Shown one piece after another: positions 2,551 to 46,565 of a stretch of 64,000 nucleotides of DNA (its first letter is position 1; each line of letters opens with the position of its first letter). Both the position numbers and the translations under genes were made by a program. The notes under the pieces are model-generated. The model was not told the origin of the DNA. It saw only the letters and a list, made by a program, of their open reading frames with translations, and searched no databases. This DNA is from a virus: positions 21,311-85,310 of the IMG/VR virus record IMGVR_UViG_3300035162_004467. One strand, given 5' to 3'.

Positions 2551-5500
2551 ATGCCTGCTCCAATTAATATTAATGCTAATTTAAACTTAAATCCAGCTAG
2601 TATCAATGCCTCTGCCAAGCAGGTGCAACAAGCTTTAGGTAGAATTACAGGCCAAGCTTCTGAGTTTCAAAAATCTCTAGATGCGTCTACCGCTCGTGTC
2701 TTTGCTTTTGGAGCTACTACTACTGTGATTAACGGGATTACCCAATCTTTTAGGGCATTAGTGTCAACCACTATTAATGTAGAAGCGAAGTTAAAAGAGA
2801 TTAATTCTATCTTAGGTGCAGGAGCTTCAGAGTTCAACAAATATAGAAATTCAATTTTTCAGGTAGCTAAAAGCACAGGGCAATCGTTTAACACTGTAGC
2901 AGAAGGTGCTGCTGAACTTGCTAGGCAAGGTCTTGGTGCAGCAGAGAGTGCTAAAAGATTAGAAGCCGCTCTTGTTCTTACTAGGATTTCTGGACTTGGA
3001 GCGGAGCAATCAGTGAAGGCTCTAACAGCAGCAATGAATGGTTTCACTTCTGCTGGGTTAACTGCGGAGCAAGTGGTTAACAAAATTGTTGCTGTTGATA
3101 CTGCATTTGCTGTTTCTGCTCAAGACCTTGCCGATGGTTTTAGTCGAGCTGGATCTACGGCAGAAGATGCGGGAGTTTCTTTCGATGAACTGCTTGGTTT
3201 AATTACCGCTGTTGAGCAGAGGACTGCGCGAGGTGGAGCTGTTATTGGTAACGCATTTAAATCAATTTTTACTCGCTTGAGCAGGGGTTCTACAATCGAA
3301 GATCTACAATCATTGGGCGTTGCGATAGATGCAAACCAGTCTGGTGTACAAAAATTAAAATCTTTATCTGACGCATTGGAAAAGATATCTGATCCAACTA
3401 TAGCAAGTCAAATCAAAGAACTCGCTGGTGGTGTGTTCCAAATTAACGTTGTTAGTGCCGCATTAAAAGATATTGGCAACGATGCTTCTATTTTTGGGGA
3501 GGCCACCACGACTTCTTTTAAGGCTATAAACGAAGCTACGGAAAAAAATAATGCTCTTAATGATACACTGAAAGCCAACTTAAATTCTCTTGTTGTTAGC
3601 GCGACAAGCCTTGGAGAGAAGATAGGCCAGCTTACTTTCGCTCCTTTGTTGGGGAGCCTAGTTGGGATTGGGACAACCTTAGCAGAAGGGCTAGATAAAG
3701 CTCTTGATCCAGAAAAAGGCAATAAATTTGTTCAAGGATTATTCAAGATTATTGGAGGATTTATCTCTGGTCCGGGGTTAGCATTATTTACATTAGCTTT
3801 TGTTAAGATCTTTAAGACCGTCCTCAGATTCGCTAGAGAAGGATTTAAGACGGTAATGGAAATGGGTTCTGCTGCCGAAAGAGTCAAGAATATTGAAGGT
3901 GGTATTGTTGGCTTATTACAGAAAGATGCTGGCTTAAGGAAGAAACTTGTAAGCACTACTGCGACACAAGCTCAAAAAGAACAAGCTGTAATCGCGGCCA
4001 TTAAAAAAGAGAACAGCTTATTAACTCAACAAGAACAGCTAGTAAGAAGGATTGCGAAGGCAACAGCTGCAAGAGGAGTTAGAGGGTATGGTGGATCAAC
4101 TGGTTTCACTGGCAAGCGAGGGAAGCGTTTCGCTGCTGGAGGGGAGGGACAAATGGAGCCGAACTTGATGACCGCTATGGCGAAGGAGGCTAGAGATGCT
4201 CCTAGTGGAGCGTCTCCTTTTGTAACTAATTTTAGAGGCAACCCTGCTGTTATGAACACTTCCGAAATGCAAGTTCGCATTAATGGAAGAGAACAAATCT
4301 TGCGCGAAGATCAAATCCCTAGATTTAACAAAGGTAGCGGGAAGAAGAACAAATTCAAAGGTCCAAAAGCGGGAGCCACAGGGACTAAGGTTGCGAATGA
4401 TAAAGAATTTGGAGATCGTTTCGTGATGTTGACTCCGAAAATAGACGAAAGAAGTCATTTCGGTCCAATGACGGTGGATGATAAGAAGCACAAGGCGACG
4501 CATCAAGTTCATGGAATAAAGTCATCTCAAATTAAAAAAGCGTCTGACAAGGAAGAAAATTCTCTAGAGAAAAGAGTTAAAGACAATTTATTTAAAGAGG
4601 CTGCTGATTGGACTTCAAGAATAAAGCCATTAGATAAATCTGCACCAGTATCTGAAATAGCAAAAGGATTTGATAGTACTCGTGGGGCCAAAGGAGCTTT
4701 ACAAGCTGCTATTGGGTCTGCATTTGAAGTGGGCATAAGCAAATCTTTAAAGTATGAGGCTAGAGAGAGAGATCAGGGTGGTGATTTCGATGTTAGAGGA
4801 GGGCCAAATATCAGCCAAATTCAAAAGCTTTTTGGGATACGTCAGACTATTGGTGATTTTAAAAATGCTAGCTCTGATGGAAACAAGAGATCATTCGTAA
4901 GAAAAGTAAGAAGAGAGAAACTGGCTGGAGCATTTACTAAAGAAGAGGCCGATCAACAAGCTGCAAAAGCAGCCGACAAAAAAGGAACGAACCTTAGATC
5001 CGAAAAGAGGAAAGCATATAGCGCACAAAGAGCGAGTAGAATGCCAAACTTACGTCGTAGAGTCCCAACTAATGCGAAAGGTTCATTGCCAAATTTAAAG
5101 TTAAACAAACATGTCCCTAATTACGCAGCTGGTAGTCTAATAAGACCTTTGCTAGGTCTTCTCAAAGGAGGGGGGAGAAGTAGTAAACTTCTTGGAGGAG
5201 GGGCGAGGAAAGCTTCTTTTGGGAAGAGAGCGAAACACCTTGTAGGCAGAGGGGTTGAGGGCGCAAAGCAGAGAGTCAAGGGTAGCGGAAGTTTAGGCGC
5301 GAGTATCGGCTTGAGCATGTTGTCAACCCAACTGCAAGAGGCGAACAAAGCAATAGAAGGTGAAGCGATAACTACCAAGCAAGCTCTTACGACTGTCGGG
5401 ACTGAGATGGCTAGTTTCGCTGCGACCGGAGCAGCGATAGGGGGTCCGATTGGTGCAGCTGCTGGAGCTTTAGTTGGTTTAGGAATAGGCTTATTTAAAA

Positions 5501-20433: not shown

Positions 20434-21516
20434 TTAGTAGATTTTTTCTAGAATTTTTTCAATACTTTTTTCGTAAGTAAACTCTTTCTGCAATTTTAAT
20501 CCCTCTGTATTTTCTGATTTAGCCATCTGGACGGATTGATCAATTGATGCTGAAATCTGCTCTCCGTTGAGTCTGTAATATTCTCCTTGATTGAATTTAG
20601 CTCCTTGGTGGAAAAAGATATTATCATAGCAGGGTTGTTTGCCTATAGGATTTAAAAGTAAAGAATTATTTTCATTAGCCCAATCTTTATGTGAGCTGCA
20701 ATTACTGACTATAGACCACTTCCCCAAAGCTGTTGCATTAAATGCTGGCAAGTTCCAACCCTCTCCATTGGATAAACCAGACAAGTCAATATCAATTGAA
20801 TTGATTAAATCATTTACCTCGCTGTTTGTTTTAAGTCGGGGCAAAAAGTTTACATTTGAATATTTTTGATTATTCGTCGCTTGAACGCACATTTGATGCA
20901 TTTGTTCTTTTTTTAAGAACGGGTTTCCGACTAAACAAGTTAGTTGATACCTTGGATTGTTACCAAATTTATTACACCATAGCTGTATGAGAGCTTGGGT
21001 GTTTTTTCTACGTTCCATCTTCCCAATAAGTCCAAAATGTATTATATCCTCACCAAGGTATTCTTTATTTGTCTTGTGGAAGTCTGGGTCAAAACCAAGG
21101 GGGACATAGGACACATTATTACACCCCTTATCCTTAAATGATTGAGCAGCCTCAGAGCAAGAAAAGAAAACATGGTTTTGAGCTTTTACAATGCTAACCT
21201 CCTCTTCTGTAGGAGAGTCCACTTCATAAAAAGTATATAAAAATTGATTATCTCCGATCTTTTTTTCTGATCCGTTAATATGCCAAACTTTTAGAGTGGG
21301 GGTTGACCTATCTAAACGACTTACCGCTTTGTCGGCATTTTGAGTTATGTAGTCTTGGTCTTCTTTTGATAACTTGTCAAAGGCTGAGAAGTCTAAATTG
21401 CCTATTGGGAAGATGTTTAGATCTAAATCTTTTTTCTTTAATTGCCTAAGAAAGTTTAAAGAAACATTCCCTAAGCTTAAAGAGTTGAATGGTGCATTGA
21501 GGTTCAGCTTATGCAT
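20434..21516 (-). CDS. GT4-like glycosyltransferase
   Basis: A 360-residue GT-B enzyme. The central part has the family-4 nucleotide-sugar half: a GLIGKMERRKNTQALIQLW strand-helix, where Lys/Arg contact the donor diphosphate, and a later SGLSNGEGWNLPAFNATALG stretch equivalent to the EX7E donor-binding region. The N-terminal half is less typical. It begins inside the last codons of the sigma-like gene (8-nt overlap) and is followed after one base by the FmdB-like gene, so the three are cotranscribed. Acceptor unknown; host surface glycan or a virion component are candidates, as for the other sugar genes in this window. Confidence 0.7.
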   Translation of the reverse strand: MHKLNLNAPFNSLSLGNVSLNFLRQLKKKDLDLNIFPIGNLDFSAFDKLSKEDQDYITQNADKAVSRLDRSTPTLKVWHINGSEKKIGDNQFLYTFYEVDSPTEEEVSIVKAQNHVFFSCSEAAQSFKDKGCNNVSYVPLGFDPDFHKTNKEYLGEDIIHFGLIGKMERRKNTQALIQLWCNKFGNNPRYQLTCLVGNPFLKKEQMHQMCVQATNNQKYSNVNFLPRLKTNSEVNDLINSIDIDLSGLSNGEGWNLPAFNATALGKWSIVSNCSSHKDWANENNSLLLNPIGKQPCYDNIFFHQGAKFNQGEYYRLNGEQISASIDQSVQMAKSENTEGLKLQKEFTYEKSIEKILEKIY

Positions 21517-22355: not shown

Positions 22356-23327
22356 ATGATTTTTGAAGAGCAAGTATCACGCAAGCCTGACCACTATTCT
22401 TGGGCAGGAGATTTTATCGAAGCAATGCACAACGGGTTTTGGACCGACAAAGAATTTAGTTTCACCTCTGATTTGCAAGACTTCAACGTGTCATTAAGTG
22501 AGCAGGAAAAAGAGATCATTGTCAGGACTCTTTCAGCTATTGGGCAGATCGAAGTCGCTGTTAAAAAGTTTTGGAGTAAGTTGGGAGATAATTTGCCTCA
22601 CCCATCATTGAGTGATTTGGGATTTGTTATGGCGAACGTAGAAGTTATTCACAATAATGCTTACGAGCGGTTGCTTCAGGTGTTGGGCTTAGAAGAAGTA
22701 TTTGAGGAGAACCTAAAATTAGATTTTATTGAGGGGCGGGTGAATTATTTGCGGAAGTATACGCACAAGTTTTATAAGAATAGTAAGAAGCAATATGTTT
22801 ATGCCTTAATTCTATTCACCCTTTTTGTGGAGAATGTGTCGTTGTTTTCCCAATTTTACGTTATAAACTGGTTTGCCCGTCATAAGAATGTATTAAAGGA
22901 CACTGATCAACAAGTTAAGTATACTCGTAACGAAGAGAACCTCCATGCTTTTGTCGGAATGAAGATAATTAATACCATCCGCGAAGAACATCCTGAGCTT
23001 TTCGACGAAGAGTTAGAAGCGCGTGTTCTTGATGAAGCCCAAGAAGCTTTCAATGCTGAAAGCAAGATTGTAGATTGGATGATTAATGGTATTCGTGAGA
23101 AAGGATTAAACGCAATTGTACTCAAGGAGTTCATTAAAAATAGAATTAACGATTCTTTGGATAAAATAGGCTTCAAACAAGCTTTTGATGTTGACAAAAA
23201 TCTGCTGAAAGATACCATCTGGTTTGAAGAGGAGTTGCTTGGAAATAATGCCACTGACTTCTTTTATGCTCGACCAGTCGAGTATTCAAAAAATTCGCAG
23301 ACGTTCAACGCCGACGACTTGTTTTAA
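22356..23327 (+). CDS. nrdB: Ribonucleotide reductase class Ia, small (beta) subunit
   Basis: A 323-residue ferritin-like protein that houses the di-iron/tyrosyl radical used by NrdA to make deoxyribonucleotides. The key metal motif is visible: E96-V-I-H99-N-N-A-Y103, corresponding to E115, H118 and radical Y122 of E. coli NrdB. E66, the glutamate in FVENVSLFSQF and the E-N-L-H pair supply the remaining ligands. The C-terminal tail ends in D-D-L-F, a typical peptide for docking into NrdA. The tyrosine is retained, so a tyrosyl-radical subclass is expected rather than a Mn/Fe type. Stop and the ATG of nrdA abut (TAAATG). Supplying dNTPs during lytic growth is the usual role of phage copies. 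Confidence 0.95.
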   Translation: MIFEEQVSRKPDHYSWAGDFIEAMHNGFWTDKEFSFTSDLQDFNVSLSEQEKEIIVRTLSAIGQIEVAVKKFWSKLGDNLPHPSLSDLGFVMANVEVIHNNAYERLLQVLGLEEVFEENLKLDFIEGRVNYLRKYTHKFYKNSKKQYVYALILFTLFVENVSLFSQFYVINWFARHKNVLKDTDQQVKYTRNEENLHAFVGMKIINTIREEHPELFDEELEARVLDEAQEAFNAESKIVDWMINGIREKGLNAIVLKEFIKNRINDSLDKIGFKQAFDVDKNLLKDTIWFEEELLGNNATDFFYARPVEYSKNSQTFNADDLF

Positions 23328-24974
23328 ATGACTGATTACTATTGGCTAAATGATAAATCAAGGTTATTCCTTGAGCGGGGATATCTTGAAAAAGGAGAAA
23401 CTCCAGAACAGAGGATTCGTGATATTGCAGATACTGCCGAAGCGTATCTCAATATGGACGGGTTTGCTGACAAGTTCGTAAGTTATATGAAGCGGGGGTT
23501 TTTCTCTCTAGCTTCTCCTGTATGGTCTAATTTTGGTCGTGATCGTGGCTTGCCTATATCTTGCAATGGAGTTTATGTGCCAGATAGGATGGATGGCATT
23601 TTAGCTAAACAGTGTGAGGTGGGCATGCAGACAAAGTATGGCTCAGGGACATCTGCTTACTTCGGAGATCTTCGCGAGCGTGGCGCACCAATCAATTCTG
23701 GAGGAGAATCTTCTGGGGCCGTCCATTTTATGGAACTGTTTGATAAGGTCGCTGCTGTTGTTTCTCAGGGGAATGTTCGTCGTGGTTCTTTCGCGGCTTA
23801 TCTCCCTATCGAACATCCTGATGTAAAAGAGTTTCTCCGCATTAAGAGTGAGGGTAACGCTATTCAAGAGATGTCTTTCGCTCTTACTGTAACTGATGAT
23901 TGGATGGAAAGCATGATTGATGGTGATCAAGAAAAGCGTCAGCTTTGGGCTTCTATAATCAGAAAGCGTTTCGAGACTGGGTATCCATACATCTTTTTTC
24001 AAGACACTGCGAATAAGAATGCGCCTGATTGTTATAAAGACAAAGGCATGAAGATTTATGCTTCTAATCTTTGCAACGAGATTAGCTTGCCGTCTAAAGA
24101 AGATGAGTCTTTTGTTTGCTGTTTATCCTCTTTGAATCTAGTTAGATGGGATGATATTATAGAGACTGATGCCATTGAAATCTTAGTCAAGTTCCTTGAC
24201 GCAGTAATGGAGGAATACATCCTGAAAACAAATAATATGCCGTTCATGGAGTCTTCCCATAACTTTGCCAAGCGTCACAGAGCTTTGGGCATGGGAGTTC
24301 TTGGTTGGCACTCTTACCTACAAAGCAAGATGATCAGCTTTGAAAGTATGGAGGCTAAAATGCAAAATAGTTCTATTTGGAAGACTATCCGTCAACGTGC
24401 AGATAAGGCTACAGAAGAATTGGCTCAAGAGTTAGGGGAACCTATGTATTGTGAGGGCTATGGTCGTCGGAATACCACCACCCTAGCTATCGCCCCGACT
24501 ACAAGTAGCTCGTTTATCTTGGGTCAGGTTTCTCCGTCTATCGAACCTCTCAATGGTAATTATTTTACTAAAGCCCTCGCCAAAGGTAAATTCACCTTTA
24601 GGAATCCTTACCTCAAAACCCTCTTGGCCGAGAAGGGTAAAGATAATGACGAAGTTTGGATGAGTATTCTAGGAACAGGAGGGTCAGTGCAGCATTTATC
24701 CTTCTTTTCTGAGGAAGAGAAGGAAGTATTCAAAACTTTTGGAGAGATCAGCCAAAAAGAAATTGTTATTCAAGCAGCCCAAAGACAAAAGTATATTGAT
24801 CAAGGGCAATCTTTAAATCTCATGGTTGCTCCTAAAGCTCCCGCGAAAGAAGTGAACCAGCTTCTAATTTATGGATGGCAGAATGGCATCAAAGGATTCT
24901 ATTATCAGAGAAGTGCTAACCCTAGCCAAGAACTAGCAAGATCCATGATGGAATGTAAATCTTGTGAAGGGTAA
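23328..24974 (+). CDS. nrdA: Ribonucleotide reductase class Ia, large (alpha) subunit
   Basis: A 548-residue catalytic subunit with the full set of residues: C79 (ISCNG) and C264/C265 for the redox pair, N247-L-C249-N-E251 for the active-site thiyl radical, adjacent Tyr525-Tyr526 for radical transfer, and the C-terminal C543-K-S-C546 that re-reduces the active site. The protein is shorter than bacterial NrdA (about 760 residues) because the N-terminal ATP-cone is absent. It therefore probably lacks dATP feedback inhibition, as in several phage and viral enzymes. It begins right after the nrdB stop, with which it forms an operon. Confidence 0.96.
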   Translation: MTDYYWLNDKSRLFLERGYLEKGETPEQRIRDIADTAEAYLNMDGFADKFVSYMKRGFFSLASPVWSNFGRDRGLPISCNGVYVPDRMDGILAKQCEVGMQTKYGSGTSAYFGDLRERGAPINSGGESSGAVHFMELFDKVAAVVSQGNVRRGSFAAYLPIEHPDVKEFLRIKSEGNAIQEMSFALTVTDDWMESMIDGDQEKRQLWASIIRKRFETGYPYIFFQDTANKNAPDCYKDKGMKIYASNLCNEISLPSKEDESFVCCLSSLNLVRWDDIIETDAIEILVKFLDAVMEEYILKTNNMPFMESSHNFAKRHRALGMGVLGWHSYLQSKMISFESMEAKMQNSSIWKTIRQRADKATEELAQELGEPMYCEGYGRRNTTTLAIAPTTSSSFILGQVSPSIEPLNGNYFTKALAKGKFTFRNPYLKTLLAEKGKDNDEVWMSILGTGGSVQHLSFFSEEEKEVFKTFGEISQKEIVIQAAQRQKYIDQGQSLNLMVAPKAPAKEVNQLLIYGWQNGIKGFYYQRSANPSQELARSMMECKSCEG

Positions 24975-25154: not shown

Positions 25155-25619
25155 ATGGGGCTAGAAAAACAAAAACTAACTAAAAATAGTAGTATGACAA
25201 TGATGATAAACAAAATGTTGGCTCCCTTGGTTTTCGAGGGAGATATCTTTAAGCGTATGCAGTTGTTAGCTAATGAAGCTAATGCTCCATTGTATTCAGG
25301 CTCTGAGCCTTTTGATGCTTATAAAGACAAGGATGATAATTTTATTCTTGAGTTTGCATTGGTCGGATTAGATCAGAAAGATATTTCTGTATTTGTAGCT
25401 GGTCAAACCTTAAAGATTGAGGCAGGATCTCAGCAAAAAGATAACGATGCTGAATTCTACCATAGAAAAATATCTCGACGCTCTGTCAAGAAGCACTTTA
25501 CCTTGCACCAGAACGTTGATAAGGATTCCATTGAGGCAGAATATAAAAATGGCCTATTAAGAATCAAAATACCTCTTGAGAAAGAGGAACAAAAAGATAT
25601 AATGATCAAAGTTAAGTAA
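25155..25619 (+). CDS. Hsp20-family small heat shock protein
   Basis: A 154-residue protein. Residues ~45-150 form an alpha-crystallin domain: FALVGLDQKDISVFVAGQ (strands 2-4 pattern), a YHRKISRRSVKKHFTL segment, and the signature YKNGLLRIKIPL near the C-terminus, equivalent to the AxxxNGVL motif. These proteins bind unfolding proteins as ATP-independent holdases. Hsp20 genes occur in several marine phages and may protect phage structural or replication proteins. A downstream start at 25194 is possible, as no clear Shine-Dalgarno precedes 25155. A strong terminator (25642-25679) follows the stop. Confidence 0.9.
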   Translation: MGLEKQKLTKNSSMTMMINKMLAPLVFEGDIFKRMQLLANEANAPLYSGSEPFDAYKDKDDNFILEFALVGLDQKDISVFVAGQTLKIEAGSQQKDNDAEFYHRKISRRSVKKHFTLHQNVDKDSIEAEYKNGLLRIKIPLEKEEQKDIMIKVK

Positions 25620-37036: not shown

Positions 37037-37738
37037 ATGGTTCCTCTTTTTAAGAGTCAATTCAGTGTAGGAAAGTCTATCCTCACCTCAGAGAAAATAT
37101 TAGACATAGCTAAAATAAACCAATTAGAAAAGGTTGTTTTATTGGAGGATACTTTTTATGGGTTTAGGGTATTCAATAAGCTCTTTCAGGAGGAAGGAAT
37201 CCCTCTTGTTTTTGGATTGAGAATATCTGTTGTTAATACGGATGGAGATTTTAATGAAAAACCTAGCAAGCTAGCTATTTTTGCAAAAAATAATCAAGGA
37301 ATACAAGATTTAAAGAGGATATCTTCTAATGCAGCTTTGAATGATCGGAACTCTCTAGTCTTGTCTGAATATGGCGAAAGTGATTTTGAGAATCTAAAGG
37401 TTTGCGTCCCCTTCTACGATTCTTATGTATTTAATAATTTATTCCACTTTGGGCTATCCCACATAGATATTAAACATTTAGATCCAGTTTACTTTATCGA
37501 AGATAATAATCACCCATTTGATTTCCAAATCAAGTCTGTTATTGACAATCTGGGAGTAAAAACTCAAACTGCAAAAACAATCCTCCACCACAACAAAGAT
37601 GAATTTGAGGCTTTGCAAATGTATAAGGCTTCTTGTAGTAGATCTCAAGGACGAGCGCCTACTTTTCAAAGACCAAACTTAGACCACTTCTGTTCAGATA
37701 ATTTCTGTTGGGAGTCTTATAAAGATGTTACCGTATAA
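37037..37738 (+). CDS. DNA polymerase III alpha, separate PHP-domain polypeptide
   Basis: A 233-residue protein matching the N-terminal PHP region of DnaE: the opening (L-F-K-S-Q-F-S), a helix, V-V-L-L-E-D-T where DnaE has A-L-A-I/L-T-D-H, then G-F-R-V-F-N-K-L-F, a F-G-L-R-I-S-V-V strand, and the L-A-I-F-A-K-N-N-Q-G-I-Q-D-L-K segment equal to the A-x-N-x-x-G-Y-x-N-L motif. It ends at the H-F-C-S-D-N segment that in DnaE precedes the palm. Most metal ligands of an active PHP are gone, so it is probably structural. The palm/fingers are encoded separately at 38339. Stop overlaps the exonuclease start by 14 nt. Confidence 0.8.
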   Translation: MVPLFKSQFSVGKSILTSEKILDIAKINQLEKVVLLEDTFYGFRVFNKLFQEEGIPLVFGLRISVVNTDGDFNEKPSKLAIFAKNNQGIQDLKRISSNAALNDRNSLVLSEYGESDFENLKVCVPFYDSYVFNNLFHFGLSHIDIKHLDPVYFIEDNNHPFDFQIKSVIDNLGVKTQTAKTILHHNKDEFEALQMYKASCSRSQGRAPTFQRPNLDHFCSDNFCWESYKDVTV

Positions 37739-38339
37739 TCAAAAATATTTAGTATTCGATACTGAGACGGAGGGTTTGAATCTTCATTCTTCTCGCACTT
37801 GGCAAGTCTCTTGGCTTATATGTCAGGGAGGTAGGGTTTTGAAAGAAAATGATCGGTATATAAACCACAACAATCTACAGATAAATTCAGTTGTAGCTAA
37901 ATTAACGGGTTTTTCTTGGGAAGAATATGATCGAAGGAAGGAGCCTTTGAAAAATGTCTGGTCTGATTTTAAAAAAGATTTATTCAATCCTGAGTATAAG
38001 GTTGTTGGTCAAAATTTATTAGGTTTTGATGTTTATATGGTAGCAGCGATGCAAAGAGCTTTGGGTGAGATCCCAGACTATAGTTACTTAGAAAGAATTT
38101 ACGATACTAGAGCTTTCGGCAAGGCTTACAGGGAAGATCTTGGCAAACCCAAGAAGGATTTATTGAGTTGGCAGTATAAGATAATTCATGACCGATCCCT
38201 CAAGGCGAGAGTTTCTCAAAATCAGTTGCTCAAATTCTTCGGTATAGAATTTGAGGAAGATAAACTGCATGATGCCTTATATGATAACAAGATGTGCTTT
38301 AAGGTTTTTTCTGCACTTAAAAAAGAAATGAATTTGTGA
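37725..38339 (+). CDS. DEDDh 3'-5' exonuclease (DnaQ-like proofreader)
   Basis: A 204-residue protein with the DnaQ/epsilon motifs: Exo I in L-V-F-D-T-E-T-E-G, Exo II in Q-N-L-L-G-F-D-V-Y, and Exo III as H-D-A-L-Y-D, the DEDDh type. The catalytic residues are all present, so it should be an active proofreading exonuclease. The gene lies between the PHP part and the polymerase part of DNA polymerase III, with a 14-nt overlap upstream and a TGATG (1-nt) overlap downstream. This is reminiscent of PolC, where the exonuclease is inserted in PHP, but here it is a separate polypeptide. Confidence 0.93.
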   Translation: MLPYNQKYLVFDTETEGLNLHSSRTWQVSWLICQGGRVLKENDRYINHNNLQINSVVAKLTGFSWEEYDRRKEPLKNVWSDFKKDLFNPEYKVVGQNLLGFDVYMVAAMQRALGEIPDYSYLERIYDTRAFGKAYREDLGKPKKDLLSWQYKIIHDRSLKARVSQNQLLKFFGIEFEEDKLHDALYDNKMCFKVFSALKKEMNL

Positions 38340-40900
38340 TGTTTGAAGATTTTTCTATTTATGATGATTGTGAGCCGCTTGGTGTGGAATTGCCAAAGAC
38401 TTCAGTGAGCGAAACTGTTTTGAAGAGCATCGACCTTGATAAAAAAAGCTCGACTAAAGAGATCATGTATGAGCTTGCTCGTAAGGGTTTACGAGACAAG
38501 GGCATTACAAACTTTAGTAATAAAAAAGAATATTTTGATAGGACTATACAAGAGCTAGAAACTTTCGAAGAGCTTGGGTTTACAGATTATATTTTGTTGA
38601 ACTGGGATGTTCTAAACTTCTGTCATGAGAATAAAATTCCTACTGGAGCAGGTCGCGGCTCCGCTGCTGGGTCTTTAGTTTTGTATTTGCTTGGGGTCAC
38701 TAATATTGATCCTATCCCTCATAATTTGTTCTTTGAACGTTTTGTATCAAAGAGTCGTGCTAAAAAAGTTTACGATAAACGAAACAAAGAGTTCCTTGTT
38801 GGTAGTCTTCTTCCTGACGTTGACTCAGATATTAGTTACGATCAGAGGCAAAAAGTGATTCAATATATTGAAAAAAAACATGAGGGCAGGACAGCAAAGA
38901 TCTTAACCTTCAACACTTTTAGTTCCAAGCTTTGCATCAGAGAAGCCACTAAGTATTTTGATGAAGCTAAGGAAGACCAAGCTAATTCGGTTAGTGACAT
39001 GATCCCCAAGCTTCATGGTAAGGTGTCCTCTTTAGAGAGCGCGAGAGAAGAGAATGAAAGGTTTGACAGTTGGGCAATTAAACATGATAGGACTTTTGTC
39101 AATGCTAAGAGGATTGAGAATCTAATTAAAAATACGGGTGTTCATCCATCTGGCATTGCTATTTGCTCACAATCAATCGGAGATGTTGTGCCTCTTCAAA
39201 AGACCAAAGATGGAGACTTGATAACAGGCTATAACATGCATGATGTCGCTGACCTTATGGTTAAGTTCGATATTCTTGGACTAAGAACACTTACAATCGC
39301 TCACAGAACTTGTGACAAAATTGGGATTAGCGTAGATGATATAGATGCTAATGACTCATTCATATACGATAAACTTCAAAGTTACAACCACCCAGAAGGT
39401 CTTTTCCAAATCTCTGCGGATACTAACTTTAGGGTTTGCCAAGAAGTTAAGCCAGATAATCTAGACGAGCTTTCTGACGTTGTCGCTCTGGCTCGCCCCG
39501 CTGCCTTGCAATTCGTTGCTGAGTATTGTAACCAGAAGATGGCTCCTTCTGATTTGAATCTTCACCCAGAGTTAGATAAGATTCTTTCTTGGTCTAAAAA
39601 TGTTATCTTGTACCAAGAGCAGTTGATGCAAATTGCTCACAAGGTGTTTGGGTTTACACTTGAAGAGGCTGAAACACTTAGGCGTATCGTTGGTAAGAAG
39701 AAAGTTGATGAGATGCCAGCATGGGAAGAAAAAATTTATACTGCTGGAGAAAAGCTTGGTCTTGGAGAAGAGATTTGTAAATTCTACTGGGACGCTCTTG
39801 ATGCTTCTGCGAACTATTCCTTTAATAAGTCCCACAGTTTTGCTTACGCTGAATTAGCAGCGAAGACTGTATACTTAAAATACAAATACCCTAGAGAGTT
39901 TTTCTTATCTGTTCTTGAGTCTTCTGAGTTCGACCCAGATCCTTTGGGAGTTGTCTCTTCTGTCCATCAAGAGTTAGACTACTTTGGTATTAAATTACTT
40001 CCCCCGAATTTATTTAAATCGAAAATGAATTTTTCTATTGAGGGAGATGATATCAGATATGGTCTAAATGGCATTAAAGGCATTTCCTCTAAATCTAAAG
40101 AGGGTCTTTTGTCTTTCAAAGGGTCAGATGGTTTTGAAGGTAAGTATGATGTATTCGCTGCTGCAAAGAATTGTGGCATTAACATTTCGGTATTAGCTGC
40201 TTTGATCCAAGCAGGAGCTATGGACGAGTCTACAAACAAAAGAGGAAGACTAGTTTTAGAGGCTCAAGCTTTCAACATCTTGACAGATAGGGAGAAGAGA
40301 AATTTTAATCTATTTAAAGAGAGGTTCGGCGATGATATTCTAAAAGCAATATCAGAAGTGATGAGGGTAAATGCTGTTGCTGATGATGGCCGTCCAATAA
40401 TGAAGGAGTCTAGGTTTGAGACTTTTAAGAGGAACTTCAAGAACTATAAAGAAATTTTTGACAAAAATAAGCCATTCCAGAAGTTTTGTAATTGGTGGTA
40501 TGAGAACACTTTGCTGGGCTATAGTTACTCTTTCGATTTGAGAGATTGCTTCGAAGATGAATTTGGCTCCATGAGCTGTTTAAGAGACGTAGATGAAATC
40601 TCAGAAAGAACAAGCTTCAAGGTGGTTTGCCAAGTAAAAGATTTTTTTACGAACATATCTCAAAGCGGTAATAAGTATATGATGATTCATGGTTCTGACA
40701 ATACAGGATCAGCTAAATTCTTAATTATGGATAATTCTAGATCAAGCACTCTCTCTGATTTTCTCTCACAATACAAAATATCAAAAGATTGCATTTTGGT
40801 CTTGAACGCCAGCAAGGGTCGTGGTACTAGTTTTGTGAACTCAGCGAGGGTGGTCGATACAAAGATTATGATGAAGCTGAAAGATCTGAATAAAAAATGA
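38339..40900 (+). CDS. DNA polymerase III alpha, polymerase part without PHP domain
   Basis: An 853-residue C-family polymerase core; the ATG at 38339 is preferred to the GTG one codon upstream. Diagnostic motifs: GAGRGSAAGSLVLYLLGVT (palm), L-P-D-V-D-S-D with the two catalytic aspartates, K-F-D-I-L-G-L-R-T-L-T with the third, YQEQLMQIAHKVFGFTLEEA and FNKSHSFAYAELAAKTVYL (fingers). A helix-hairpin-helix-like N-G-I-K-G-I-S segment and an OB-like strand set near residue 760 follow. The PHP domain is absent and is encoded at 37037-37738; the exonuclease gene comes between. The stop overlaps the ClpA-like start (ATGA). I see no obvious clamp-binding Q-x-x-L-F near the C-terminus. Confidence 0.95.
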   Translation: MFEDFSIYDDCEPLGVELPKTSVSETVLKSIDLDKKSSTKEIMYELARKGLRDKGITNFSNKKEYFDRTIQELETFEELGFTDYILLNWDVLNFCHENKIPTGAGRGSAAGSLVLYLLGVTNIDPIPHNLFFERFVSKSRAKKVYDKRNKEFLVGSLLPDVDSDISYDQRQKVIQYIEKKHEGRTAKILTFNTFSSKLCIREATKYFDEAKEDQANSVSDMIPKLHGKVSSLESAREENERFDSWAIKHDRTFVNAKRIENLIKNTGVHPSGIAICSQSIGDVVPLQKTKDGDLITGYNMHDVADLMVKFDILGLRTLTIAHRTCDKIGISVDDIDANDSFIYDKLQSYNHPEGLFQISADTNFRVCQEVKPDNLDELSDVVALARPAALQFVAEYCNQKMAPSDLNLHPELDKILSWSKNVILYQEQLMQIAHKVFGFTLEEAETLRRIVGKKKVDEMPAWEEKIYTAGEKLGLGEEICKFYWDALDASANYSFNKSHSFAYAELAAKTVYLKYKYPREFFLSVLESSEFDPDPLGVVSSVHQELDYFGIKLLPPNLFKSKMNFSIEGDDIRYGLNGIKGISSKSKEGLLSFKGSDGFEGKYDVFAAAKNCGINISVLAALIQAGAMDESTNKRGRLVLEAQAFNILTDREKRNFNLFKERFGDDILKAISEVMRVNAVADDGRPIMKESRFETFKRNFKNYKEIFDKNKPFQKFCNWWYENTLLGYSYSFDLRDCFEDEFGSMSCLRDVDEISERTSFKVVCQVKDFFTNISQSGNKYMMIHGSDNTGSAKFLIMDNSRSSTLSDFLSQYKISKDCILVLNASKGRGTSFVNSARVVDTKIMMKLKDLNKK

Positions 40901-45784: not shown

Positions 45785-46051
45785 ATGTCTTTAATTAAAA
45801 CTTTAGCTCAAAGCCTTAAATTGTACCTTGAATTAAGGAATAAATTGGCTTTCTTTGAAATTAAAAATAACCATAGAAAGATAAAAGATGAACTCATTAA
45901 TGAAATTGAAGAACTACGGGCTGCTGGTGATAGTAACTCCTCTGATCGCGCTGACCTCTTGCGGAAGCGTCTCAAATCCGAAAACGACGACTTTGAACAT
46001 ATATCAGCCGTCTTCATTAAAGCTCAAGGCGGGTCAACCAATTCAGACTGA
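45785..46051 (+). CDS. Coiled-coil protein overlapping a spanin-like lipoprotein gene
   Basis: An 88-residue helical protein with a leucine/isoleucine heptad pattern (I-K-D-E-L-I-N-E-I-E-E-L-R-A-A-G). The following GDSNSSDRADLLRKRL segment is typical of small conserved proteins near marine phage lysis genes. It lacks the N-terminal membrane segment expected of an i-spanin (Rz). The lipoprotein gene begins inside it in another frame (45888), as in Rz/Rz1 pairs. It may be a divergent partner of that lipoprotein, or only a neighbour; the lysis link is an inference from overlap and position next to the holin. Confidence 0.55.
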   Translation: MSLIKTLAQSLKLYLELRNKLAFFEIKNNHRKIKDELINEIEELRAAGDSNSSDRADLLRKRLKSENDDFEHISAVFIKAQGGSTNSD

Positions 46052-46136
46052 AGAGGGGGTTTACACCCCTCAGACGGATGAAGTTTGGCATTCAGATGTT
46101 CGTTACAGGAAGCTGGAGCGAGAACTTTTTGATTAA
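45888..46136 (+). CDS. Rz1-like outer-membrane lipoprotein (o-spanin candidate)
   Basis: An 82-residue protein in a different frame overlapping the 3' half of the upstream coiled-coil gene. It has a basic start (M-N-S-L-M-K-L-K-N-Y), a hydrophobic segment (L-L-V-I-V-T-P-L-I-A), then the lipobox L-T-S-C, followed by Gly-Ser. Signal peptidase II should cleave before that Cys, leaving a ~58-residue periplasmic lipoprotein containing several prolines. A nested small lipoprotein next to a holin is the classic Rz1 arrangement, used to fuse inner and outer membranes during lysis of Gram-negative hosts. Confidence 0.75.
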   Translation: MNSLMKLKNYGLLVIVTPLIALTSCGSVSNPKTTTLNIYQPSSLKLKAGQPIQTEEGVYTPQTDEVWHSDVRYRKLERELFD

Positions 46137-46212
46137 TTAAATCTAGTTCTCCGTCTTAATAGTAAAATTATAGGCAAGGCAACCACATATTCATAGACAA
46201 AAACTTTTTTTG

Positions 46213-46220
46213 GTGTAATG
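46213..46220 (+). promoter_or_regulatory. GTGTAATG element before the holin gene
   Basis: GTGTAATG ends 8 nt before ATG 46229, in the 92-nt gap after the lipoprotein gene. A seven-T run directly precedes it. Same core as other GTGTAAY sites. Confidence 0.4.
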
Positions 46221-46228
46221 TATTTTAC

Positions 46229-46543
46229 ATGGATTTTAAAAATCTTATTAGAGAGTTTTTAGATGGTGGTTGGGTAATTCCTGTGATTGGGGCATCTGGC
46301 ATGATCGCTCGGATGCTTACATACAAAGGGAATGTTTCGATAAGATCTTTTTTTGGTAATGTCTTGGCTGCTGCTATATTATCTGGCATTCTATGGTTTG
46401 TTTTGCAGGATGCGCCTATAAGTGATTTTATTAAGGCTATTTCTTATGGTGTTGTTGGAGTAGTAGCCCCAGAGATAATCAATGGAGTAATCGTTTTAGC
46501 AAAAAAGTTTGAGAAGAATCCTGATAAATTCTTAAAAAAATAG
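46229..46543 (+). CDS. Holin, three membrane segments
   Basis: A 104-residue protein with three hydrophobic segments: ~14-30 (WVIPVIGASGMIARML), ~45-62 (LAAAILSGILWFVL) and ~70-92 (ISYGVVGVVAPEIINGVIVL), and a Lys-rich C-terminus. This is the size and shape of a class I holin, which forms lethal holes in the inner membrane at the end of infection. It is downstream of the spanin-like pair, completing a lysis cassette, but I find no endolysin in the window. Its own GTGTAATG element suggests late expression. Confidence 0.75.
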   Translation: MDFKNLIREFLDGGWVIPVIGASGMIARMLTYKGNVSIRSFFGNVLAAAILSGILWFVLQDAPISDFIKAISYGVVGVVAPEIINGVIVLAKKFEKNPDKFLKK

Positions 46544-46550
46544 GAAATTA

Positions 46551-46558
46551 GTGTAACA
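46551..46558 (+). promoter_or_regulatory. GTGTAACA element before the fibre operon
   Basis: GTGTAACA ends 7 nt before ATG 46566, in the 22-nt gap after the holin gene. It would drive the baseplate-like and fibre genes 46566-48672. Confidence 0.4.
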
Positions 46559-46565
46559 TAAAACA

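Follow-up and report, generated by a model that had tools for sequence, protein, structure and literature searches.

How a phage breaks the outer membrane of its host when it encodes no recognisable spanin is an open question. The locus described here bears on it because a lipoprotein gene (lp) begins inside the gene of a coiled-coil-like protein (up), as the o-spanin gene often does inside its partner, and the enclosing protein lacks a transmembrane anchor. The locus lies in a 64,000-nucleotide stretch of viral DNA (the window; positions 21,311 to 85,310 of IMG/VR record IMGVR_UViG_3300035162_004467). Its open reading frames bear out the coordinates, the two frames and the L-T-S-C lipobox of the original prediction, which was made from the sequence alone. 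The features are as follows:

45785..46051, plus strand: up, an open reading frame of 88 amino acids; helical hairpin and candidate i-spanin-like partner, lacking a transmembrane anchor
45788..45856, plus strand: N-terminal helix of up (residues 2-24), in the place of a transmembrane segment; amphipathic in the family
45888..46136, plus strand: lp, an open reading frame for an 82-amino-acid lipoprotein; candidate o-spanin
45951..45962, plus strand: lipobox L-T-S-C of lp (residues 22-25), on bases shared with A-D-L-L-R of up
45993..46121, plus strand: conserved mature domain of lp (LNIYQPS...WHSD.R...LER), from an alignment of 42; short strands with a helix after them
46136..46180, minus strand: what is left, at its 3' end, of a PEP-CTERM-like gene, 15 amino acids, from a protein match and DNA comparison
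46229..46543, plus strand: hol, holin-like membrane protein with a hydrophobic segment (KD19 2.13); a homologue (locus L124) matches PHROG holins

The lp gene starts 103 nt into up, at 0.39 of its length, in the +1 frame relative to it; the two overlap by 164 nt and lp extends 85 nt beyond the end of up. The lp signal peptide terminates in the lipobox, with Cys25 as the predicted lipidated residue. Its start is ambiguous between Met1 and Met5, and in 115 distinct loci a script picked an ATG 24 codons ahead of the cysteine in 58, 20 codons ahead in 51 and another start in 6. We put at roughly 0.55 the probability that up and lp form a divergent two-component spanin of the overlapped type, in which lp is the o-spanin and up an Rz-like hairpin that has no transmembrane anchor.

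Conservation and coding of the nested pair

Since a locus was retrieved when it resembled either protein, up or lp, each of the two genes had the chance to turn up alone. The 479 loci fetched, which are redundant by contig, comprise 477 from IMG/VR and 2 from one metagenome-assembled genome (MAG); a single IMG/VR scan found 335 stretches encoding an lp relative, and loci were taken from the best 80 per scan. Both genes occur in 476 of the 479 loci and relatives of up in 477. The three incomplete loci (up only in L419, lp only in L422 and L437) all end at a contig edge. Whether relatives carry the same nested pair, a question raised with the original prediction, can thus be answered: up and lp keep an identical relative position in 473 of the 476 loci with both genes, the exceptions being two separated loci from one contig and a short overlap in L478.

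Six up and lp proteins gave no tblastn match in 50,697 phage records, in which endolysin queries, used as a positive control, did match; a separated pair (L380) produced nothing there beyond short hits at the level of chance (E 2 to 5). The sole genome matches, in one contig scan, are two contigs of the MAG, labelled Flavobacteriaceae, which does not fix the host. A relative of DUF1549 lies near the pair on 13 of the fetched phage contigs, and L120 (4813-7757) and its relatives carry DUF1549/DUF1553 and DUF1501 genes near the pair, in L120 in the order DUF1549 then DUF1501, which are usually genes of bacterial genomes. DUF1549, DUF1501 and PEP-CTERM-like proteins are typical of Planctomycetes and Verrucomicrobia, and their presence near the pair would make a host from these groups plausible.

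That lp might be a chance reading frame was ruled out by swapping up codons for synonyms in the 115 distinct loci and scoring whether the lp frame remained open, with a lipobox at its place. The frame is open in all 115, against a mean probability of 0.019 under such reshuffling, and the lipobox at that place has a mean probability of 0.004. Substitution patterns point the same way. At fourfold-degenerate sites of up, 49.7% of comparisons differ outside the overlap and 22.2% inside it, and this deficit indicates that the second frame is constrained; fourfold sites of lp likewise differ less within the overlap (0.215) than in the free tail (0.452), and the amino acids of lp differ least in the free tail (0.103 versus 0.268). 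These comparisons cover 1,042 pairs of moderately diverged loci, and since the sequences are related the counts give direction and size, not independent events. Both up and lp are genuine genes, and both frames are under selection.

The lipobox cysteine is kept in all 150 distinct lp sequences (11 loci in which the contig ends within lp having been excluded beforehand), within the boxes LTSC (139), QTSC (5), LISC (2), and LTCC, LVGC, IAGC and VVGC (1 each); the non-canonical QTSC is confined to distant relatives. A lipobox missing from close relatives, named with the original prediction as evidence against it, was looked for and not found. lp has, then, the N-terminal lipoprotein signal with lipobox that marks o-spanins. 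In E. coli, an aspartate at position +2 retains a lipoprotein in the inner membrane; no lp among the 150 has one, although the E. coli rule may not be that of the host. The motif WHS is likewise present in 150 of 150.

The rare un-nested forms provide a natural experiment on overlapping genes. In L380 (contig IMGVR_UViG_3300009705_003736; refetched as L421), a gap of 30 nt separates up (3498-3788) from lp (3819-4085); up retains its EIEKLR...DRADIIR region with no lp overlying it, and the signal peptide of lp, which ends in the lipobox LVGC, is unrelated, the mature domain being unchanged. The short-overlap form, L478, has the lipobox IAGC and an up in which the DRAD motif is absent, and L422, cut by the contig edge, has VVGC. 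Among the 150 distinct lp these three boxes are confined to these three lineages with a new signal peptide, and LTSC is nearly fixed while the genes are nested. This pattern suggests that lipidation itself is what is conserved and that LTSC is fixed in place by the up frame. A comparable pattern is described by Kongari et al. (2018; PMC6139136) for one overlapped and one separated spanin pair, those of phages Jersey and FSL_SP-031, whose o-spanins are unlike in their N-terminal part, the signal among it, and alike from the centre to the C-terminus; in L380 and L478, too, the signal has changed, and in L380 the mature domain has been kept.

Two nested loci, L228 and L235, retain LTSC and have an up without the DRAD..R motif. 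Since this motif can be lost in nested loci and kept in the un-nested L380, its conservation is not fully accounted for by the lipobox alone or by up alone.

Lysis genes around the pair

The genomic context was assessed in 60 of the 115 distinct loci, those with at least 3 kb on both sides, counting genes within 4 kb of the pair. Of the 60, 37 have an endolysin homologue and 57 at least one of the holin-like genes hol, tmP and tm63; 58 have a lysis neighbour of some kind, and in the remaining 2 none was found within 4 kb. A lysis neighbourhood is common for two-component spanins, though not required of them. The endolysins include Amidase_2 proteins in L119 and L120 (E about 1e-17) and a CHAP protein in L050 (4e-8). 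tmP and tm63 are termed holin-like from a hydrophobic segment and their position, judged by eye, and tmP matches phrog_9685, a family of unknown function. Of the 36 distinct loci with tmP no more than 400 nt upstream of up, 35 have the tmP stop at -1 to 18 nt relative to the beginning of up.

In the window, the original prediction placed the pair next to a holin. The holin assignment holds by way of relatives: the hol homologue of L124 has hits to holin families of PHROG (E 1.1e-4 and 1.6e-3), the window copy itself giving weak matches to families of unknown function (E 0.0075 and 0.011), and on this sequence evidence hol (46229-46543) is a predicted holin. The adjacency is a different matter. 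The gene order in the clade of the window is epimerase, pair, a minus-strand block (in many relatives) and hol, and in close relatives such as L002 the block, of about 2.2 kb, separates lp from hol. It has been deleted in the window, leaving a remnant at 46180-46136 whose 15 residues share 93% identity with the protein encoded at L002 4246-5079 (minus strand; E 0.002), and a scar at 46136-46228 in which the end of the minus-strand PEP-CTERM-like gene is joined to the sequence preceding hol. As read from this comparison, the close contact of lp and hol in the window is a deletion product. Such contact is not unusual per se, as hol follows lp by no more than about 100 nt in, for example, L041, L098 and L124 also, and the block is missing in L041 and L098 too.

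Several other genes and motifs were observed in and around this region. L002 (4246-5079), L012 (4306-5028) and L030 (4253-4987) each have, on the minus strand and adjoining the pair, a gene for a protein that, judged by eye, has a signal peptide and a PEP-CTERM-like tail; the profile NF038120 gives weak matches for L012 and L030 (best E 9e-5, below the curated cut-off) and none for L002. A very glutamate-rich protein of about 400 amino acids with a cysteine-containing N-terminal part (L002 5273-6493, minus strand) is encoded near the pair in 21 of the 60 loci. The sequence GTGTAANRTA occurs in the window at 443-452, 46213-46222 and 46551-46560, each time with an open reading frame whose ATG (459, 46229 and 46566) follows after 5 or 6 nt, and is possibly a phage promoter or leader motif; a triple occurrence was reached in 3 of 100 shuffles, with a pattern that was chosen after two sites had been seen. 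Elsewhere, at 22356-24974, 25155-25619, 37037-37738 and 38336-40900, the window encodes ribonucleotide reductase subunits, an Hsp20 protein, a PHP-domain protein and a DnaE-type DNA polymerase III alpha.

The lysis genes are not always clustered. In G001, a close relative of the window, an Amidase_2 endolysin lies at 72.0 kb with a tmP homologue nearby and the pair at 95.5 kb, about 23 kb away, so the lysis genes of that genome are not all together. No endolysin was found in the record of the window with Pfam on ten window proteins and with the Amidase_2 and CHAP profiles. A pair with no part in lysis, lp being an envelope lipoprotein for superinfection exclusion or a similar task and up an unrelated small phage protein, would fit the remote endolysin of G001 and the want of a convincing match of either protein to a spanin family; it leaves the lysis neighbours in 58 of 60 loci and the persistence of the two genes side by side even when un-nested without a reason, and we consider it highly improbable.

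lp could also be a true o-spanin whose inner-membrane partner is another membrane protein (tmP, hol, a coiled-coil protein with an N-terminal membrane segment, or one unseen); up would then be an anti-holin or a cytoplasmic regulator of lysis, tied to lp by nothing more than the shared DNA. The absence of an export or membrane segment from up speaks for this, as does the position of tmP directly ahead of up in 35 distinct loci. So do the further N-terminal-membrane proteins of G001, one of them of 144 amino acids, which by eye are not coiled coils and could still be partners, and, in some loci, a coiled-coil protein with an N-terminal membrane segment at the place of hol. Against it, no named partner is constant (tmP 22, hol 32 and the N-terminal-membrane coiled-coil protein 10 of 60 loci), whereas up is absent from only 2 of 479, both at contig edges. 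We therefore regard a partner other than up as possible but unlikely. The search for a distant partner covered the record of the window, G001 and G007; an N-terminal-membrane coiled-coil protein was recognised in neither of the first two, coiled coils being judged by eye, and as the record of the window may be a fragment, this is weak evidence.

The example in L012 (6147-6461), at the hol place, matches phrog_2658 ('hol-like chemotaxis', E 2e-8), and some other loci are alike.

The two proteins and a possible mechanism

In the AlphaFold2 model of lp, which is of modest confidence (mean pLDDT 71.6, pTM 0.35), a signal helix and a linker precede four short strands, and a helix (70-81) forms the C-terminus. 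The mature protein has no hydrophobic segment (maximum KD19, a Kyte-Doolittle measure, -0.72 to 0.73 in the 115 distinct loci). This bears on the original prediction, which had left the choice between a divergent spanin system and a lipoprotein acting alone in the manner of a u-spanin. Without a C-terminal membrane helix in any of the 115 a u-spanin is unlikely and was rejected, and lp occurs without up in only 2 of 479 loci, both cut by a contig edge. The lone lipoprotein is thus not supported, and the spanin system gains support from the conserved nested pair, the lysis neighbours and the un-nested relatives. By pattern, lp is the sole lipoprotein candidate in the record of the window (84.0 of 85.3 kb scanned) and likewise in G001; G007 has five in addition to lp.

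For up, AlphaFold2 predicts with confidence a two-helix hairpin (helices 2-47 and 50-81; mean pLDDT 90.9), which gives it the predicted helical or coiled-coil character that is common, though not universal, among i-spanins; its action in the periplasm is putative. The upstream protein had been described as lacking the N-terminal membrane segment of Rz, and our measurements agree. Judged by the Kyte-Doolittle measure alone, KD19 over the first 38 residues is 0.34 for the up of the window and 2.63 for lambda Rz. The family median is 1.04, and 2 of 145 relatives reach at least 1.6, the transmembrane threshold, with a maximum of 1.67 (standard starts, 2 of 147 without a start in range having been dropped); with non-standard starts allowed, 8 of 115 do. 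An alternative upstream start that would add a membrane segment was also considered and rejected, as the in-frame upstream sequence in L002 and L380 has, by eye, no long hydrophobic run. The N-terminal transmembrane domain with type II topology that defines an i-spanin is therefore lacking in up, and we do not class up as one.

The hydrophobic moment of the N-terminal helix has a family median of 0.42, against a median of 0.31 for 181 open reading frames from the record of the window and G001, of which 13.8% reach 0.43; the up of the window is weakly amphipathic (0.37, or 0.47 with a non-standard start). As a coiled coil is likewise amphipathic, this does not prove membrane binding. The helix might even insert in the inner membrane as a weak signal anchor, which would make the pair an ordinary two-component spanin missed by predictors. 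Its median KD19 exceeds that of phage open reading frame starts (0.29), the two relatives at or above the threshold fit, and the transmembrane domain of lambda Rz is described as needed only as an anchor, for which an artificial one serves (PMC5295617). The low KD19 in the window and the charges distributed along the helix there, on the Kyte-Doolittle measure alone, count against insertion, which we think improbable.

For an anchor-less two-component spanin, we infer binding of up to lp, a role in lysis, a location of up and a route by which it reaches lp, as follows. After export and lipidation at Cys25, lp would be retained in the outer membrane, its short linker and C-terminal domain lying in the periplasm. 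The hairpin of up would be the counterpart of the periplasmic portion of an i-spanin of the Rz type, and its N-terminal helix, too weakly hydrophobic to cross the inner membrane, would rest on it rather than pass through; that this helix does the anchoring in this group is suggested by the exchangeable anchor of lambda Rz (PMC5295617). Having no export signal, up is probably cytoplasmic, or lies against the membrane from within, for as long as the holin has not opened it, and the simplest route to lp would be the holin lesion, as for the endolysin. Once in the periplasm, up would bind lp and link the two membranes, and the outer membrane would be disrupted. The full version of this proposal, in which a soluble or peripheral up waits in the cytoplasm, crosses the holin lesions alongside the endolysin and does not pair with lp before that, its helix gripping the inner membrane, is tentative, and we rate it as rather doubtful. 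If true, spanin assembly would be gated by the holin instead of the complex being pre-formed, and a widespread class in uncultured aquatic phages would have been dropped by surveys that require a transmembrane segment.

Comparison with known spanins

Known families give no convincing match to either protein. The Rz family PF03245 matched 0 of 12 records; the best PHROG spanin match to lp, at E 0.021 for 16 lp relatives and 0.084 for the window, is too weak to count; PDB sequence profiles gave best E values of 0.52 and 0.72 in one search and no match in another; and Foldseek, with models of up and lp against a viral library and of lp also against the PDB, found no match at E 0.001. Searches of the open-access literature brought up neither this pair nor an i-spanin described as free of a transmembrane segment. 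The surveys themselves may bear on this: of the 677 genomes surveyed by Kongari et al., 91 were left without a spanin in a search, as described, for type II partners alone, in which other anchors were not considered (PMC6139136), and a 2025 survey states that i-spanin candidates without a transmembrane region were discarded (PMC12596118).

The pair differs from the two-component spanins in three further respects. up has no N-terminal transmembrane domain, in contrast to i-spanins; lp is not proline-rich as Rz1 is, and has a conserved WHSD-containing domain instead; and the cysteines presumed to link the subunits, reported as potentially universal in two-component spanins, are lacking in the 115 distinct loci, in which mature lp never has a cysteine other than the lipidated one and up has one in 10. 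With the unimolecular spanins (T1 gp11) lp shares the N-terminal lipoprotein signal; it differs from them in having no C-terminal transmembrane helix and in being accompanied by up wherever the contig reaches far enough.

In layout, by contrast, the pair resembles the overlapped two-component spanins, such as lambda Rz/Rz1 and P2 LysB/LysC as described by Kongari et al. (PMC6139136), in which the lipoprotein gene begins within the gene of a helical partner, in another frame, and passes its end; o-spanins in both the +1 and the -1 frame are known (PMC6139136). The genes are embedded, or in the rare forms overlapped or adjacent, as those of two-component spanins are, and the pair also shares with them the small size of the proteins, the lysis-gene neighbours and the existence of overlapped and separated homologues (PMC6139136). 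A parallel for the missing anchor may be the lipoproteins in 31 genomes for which Kongari et al. list no linked type II i-spanin candidate (PMC6139136): like lp, they have no recognisable inner-membrane partner alongside. The present pair differs from those 31 genomes in that a conserved overlapping partner is there, and the presence of up makes this a concrete and testable candidate for outer membrane disruption by an anchor-less spanin.
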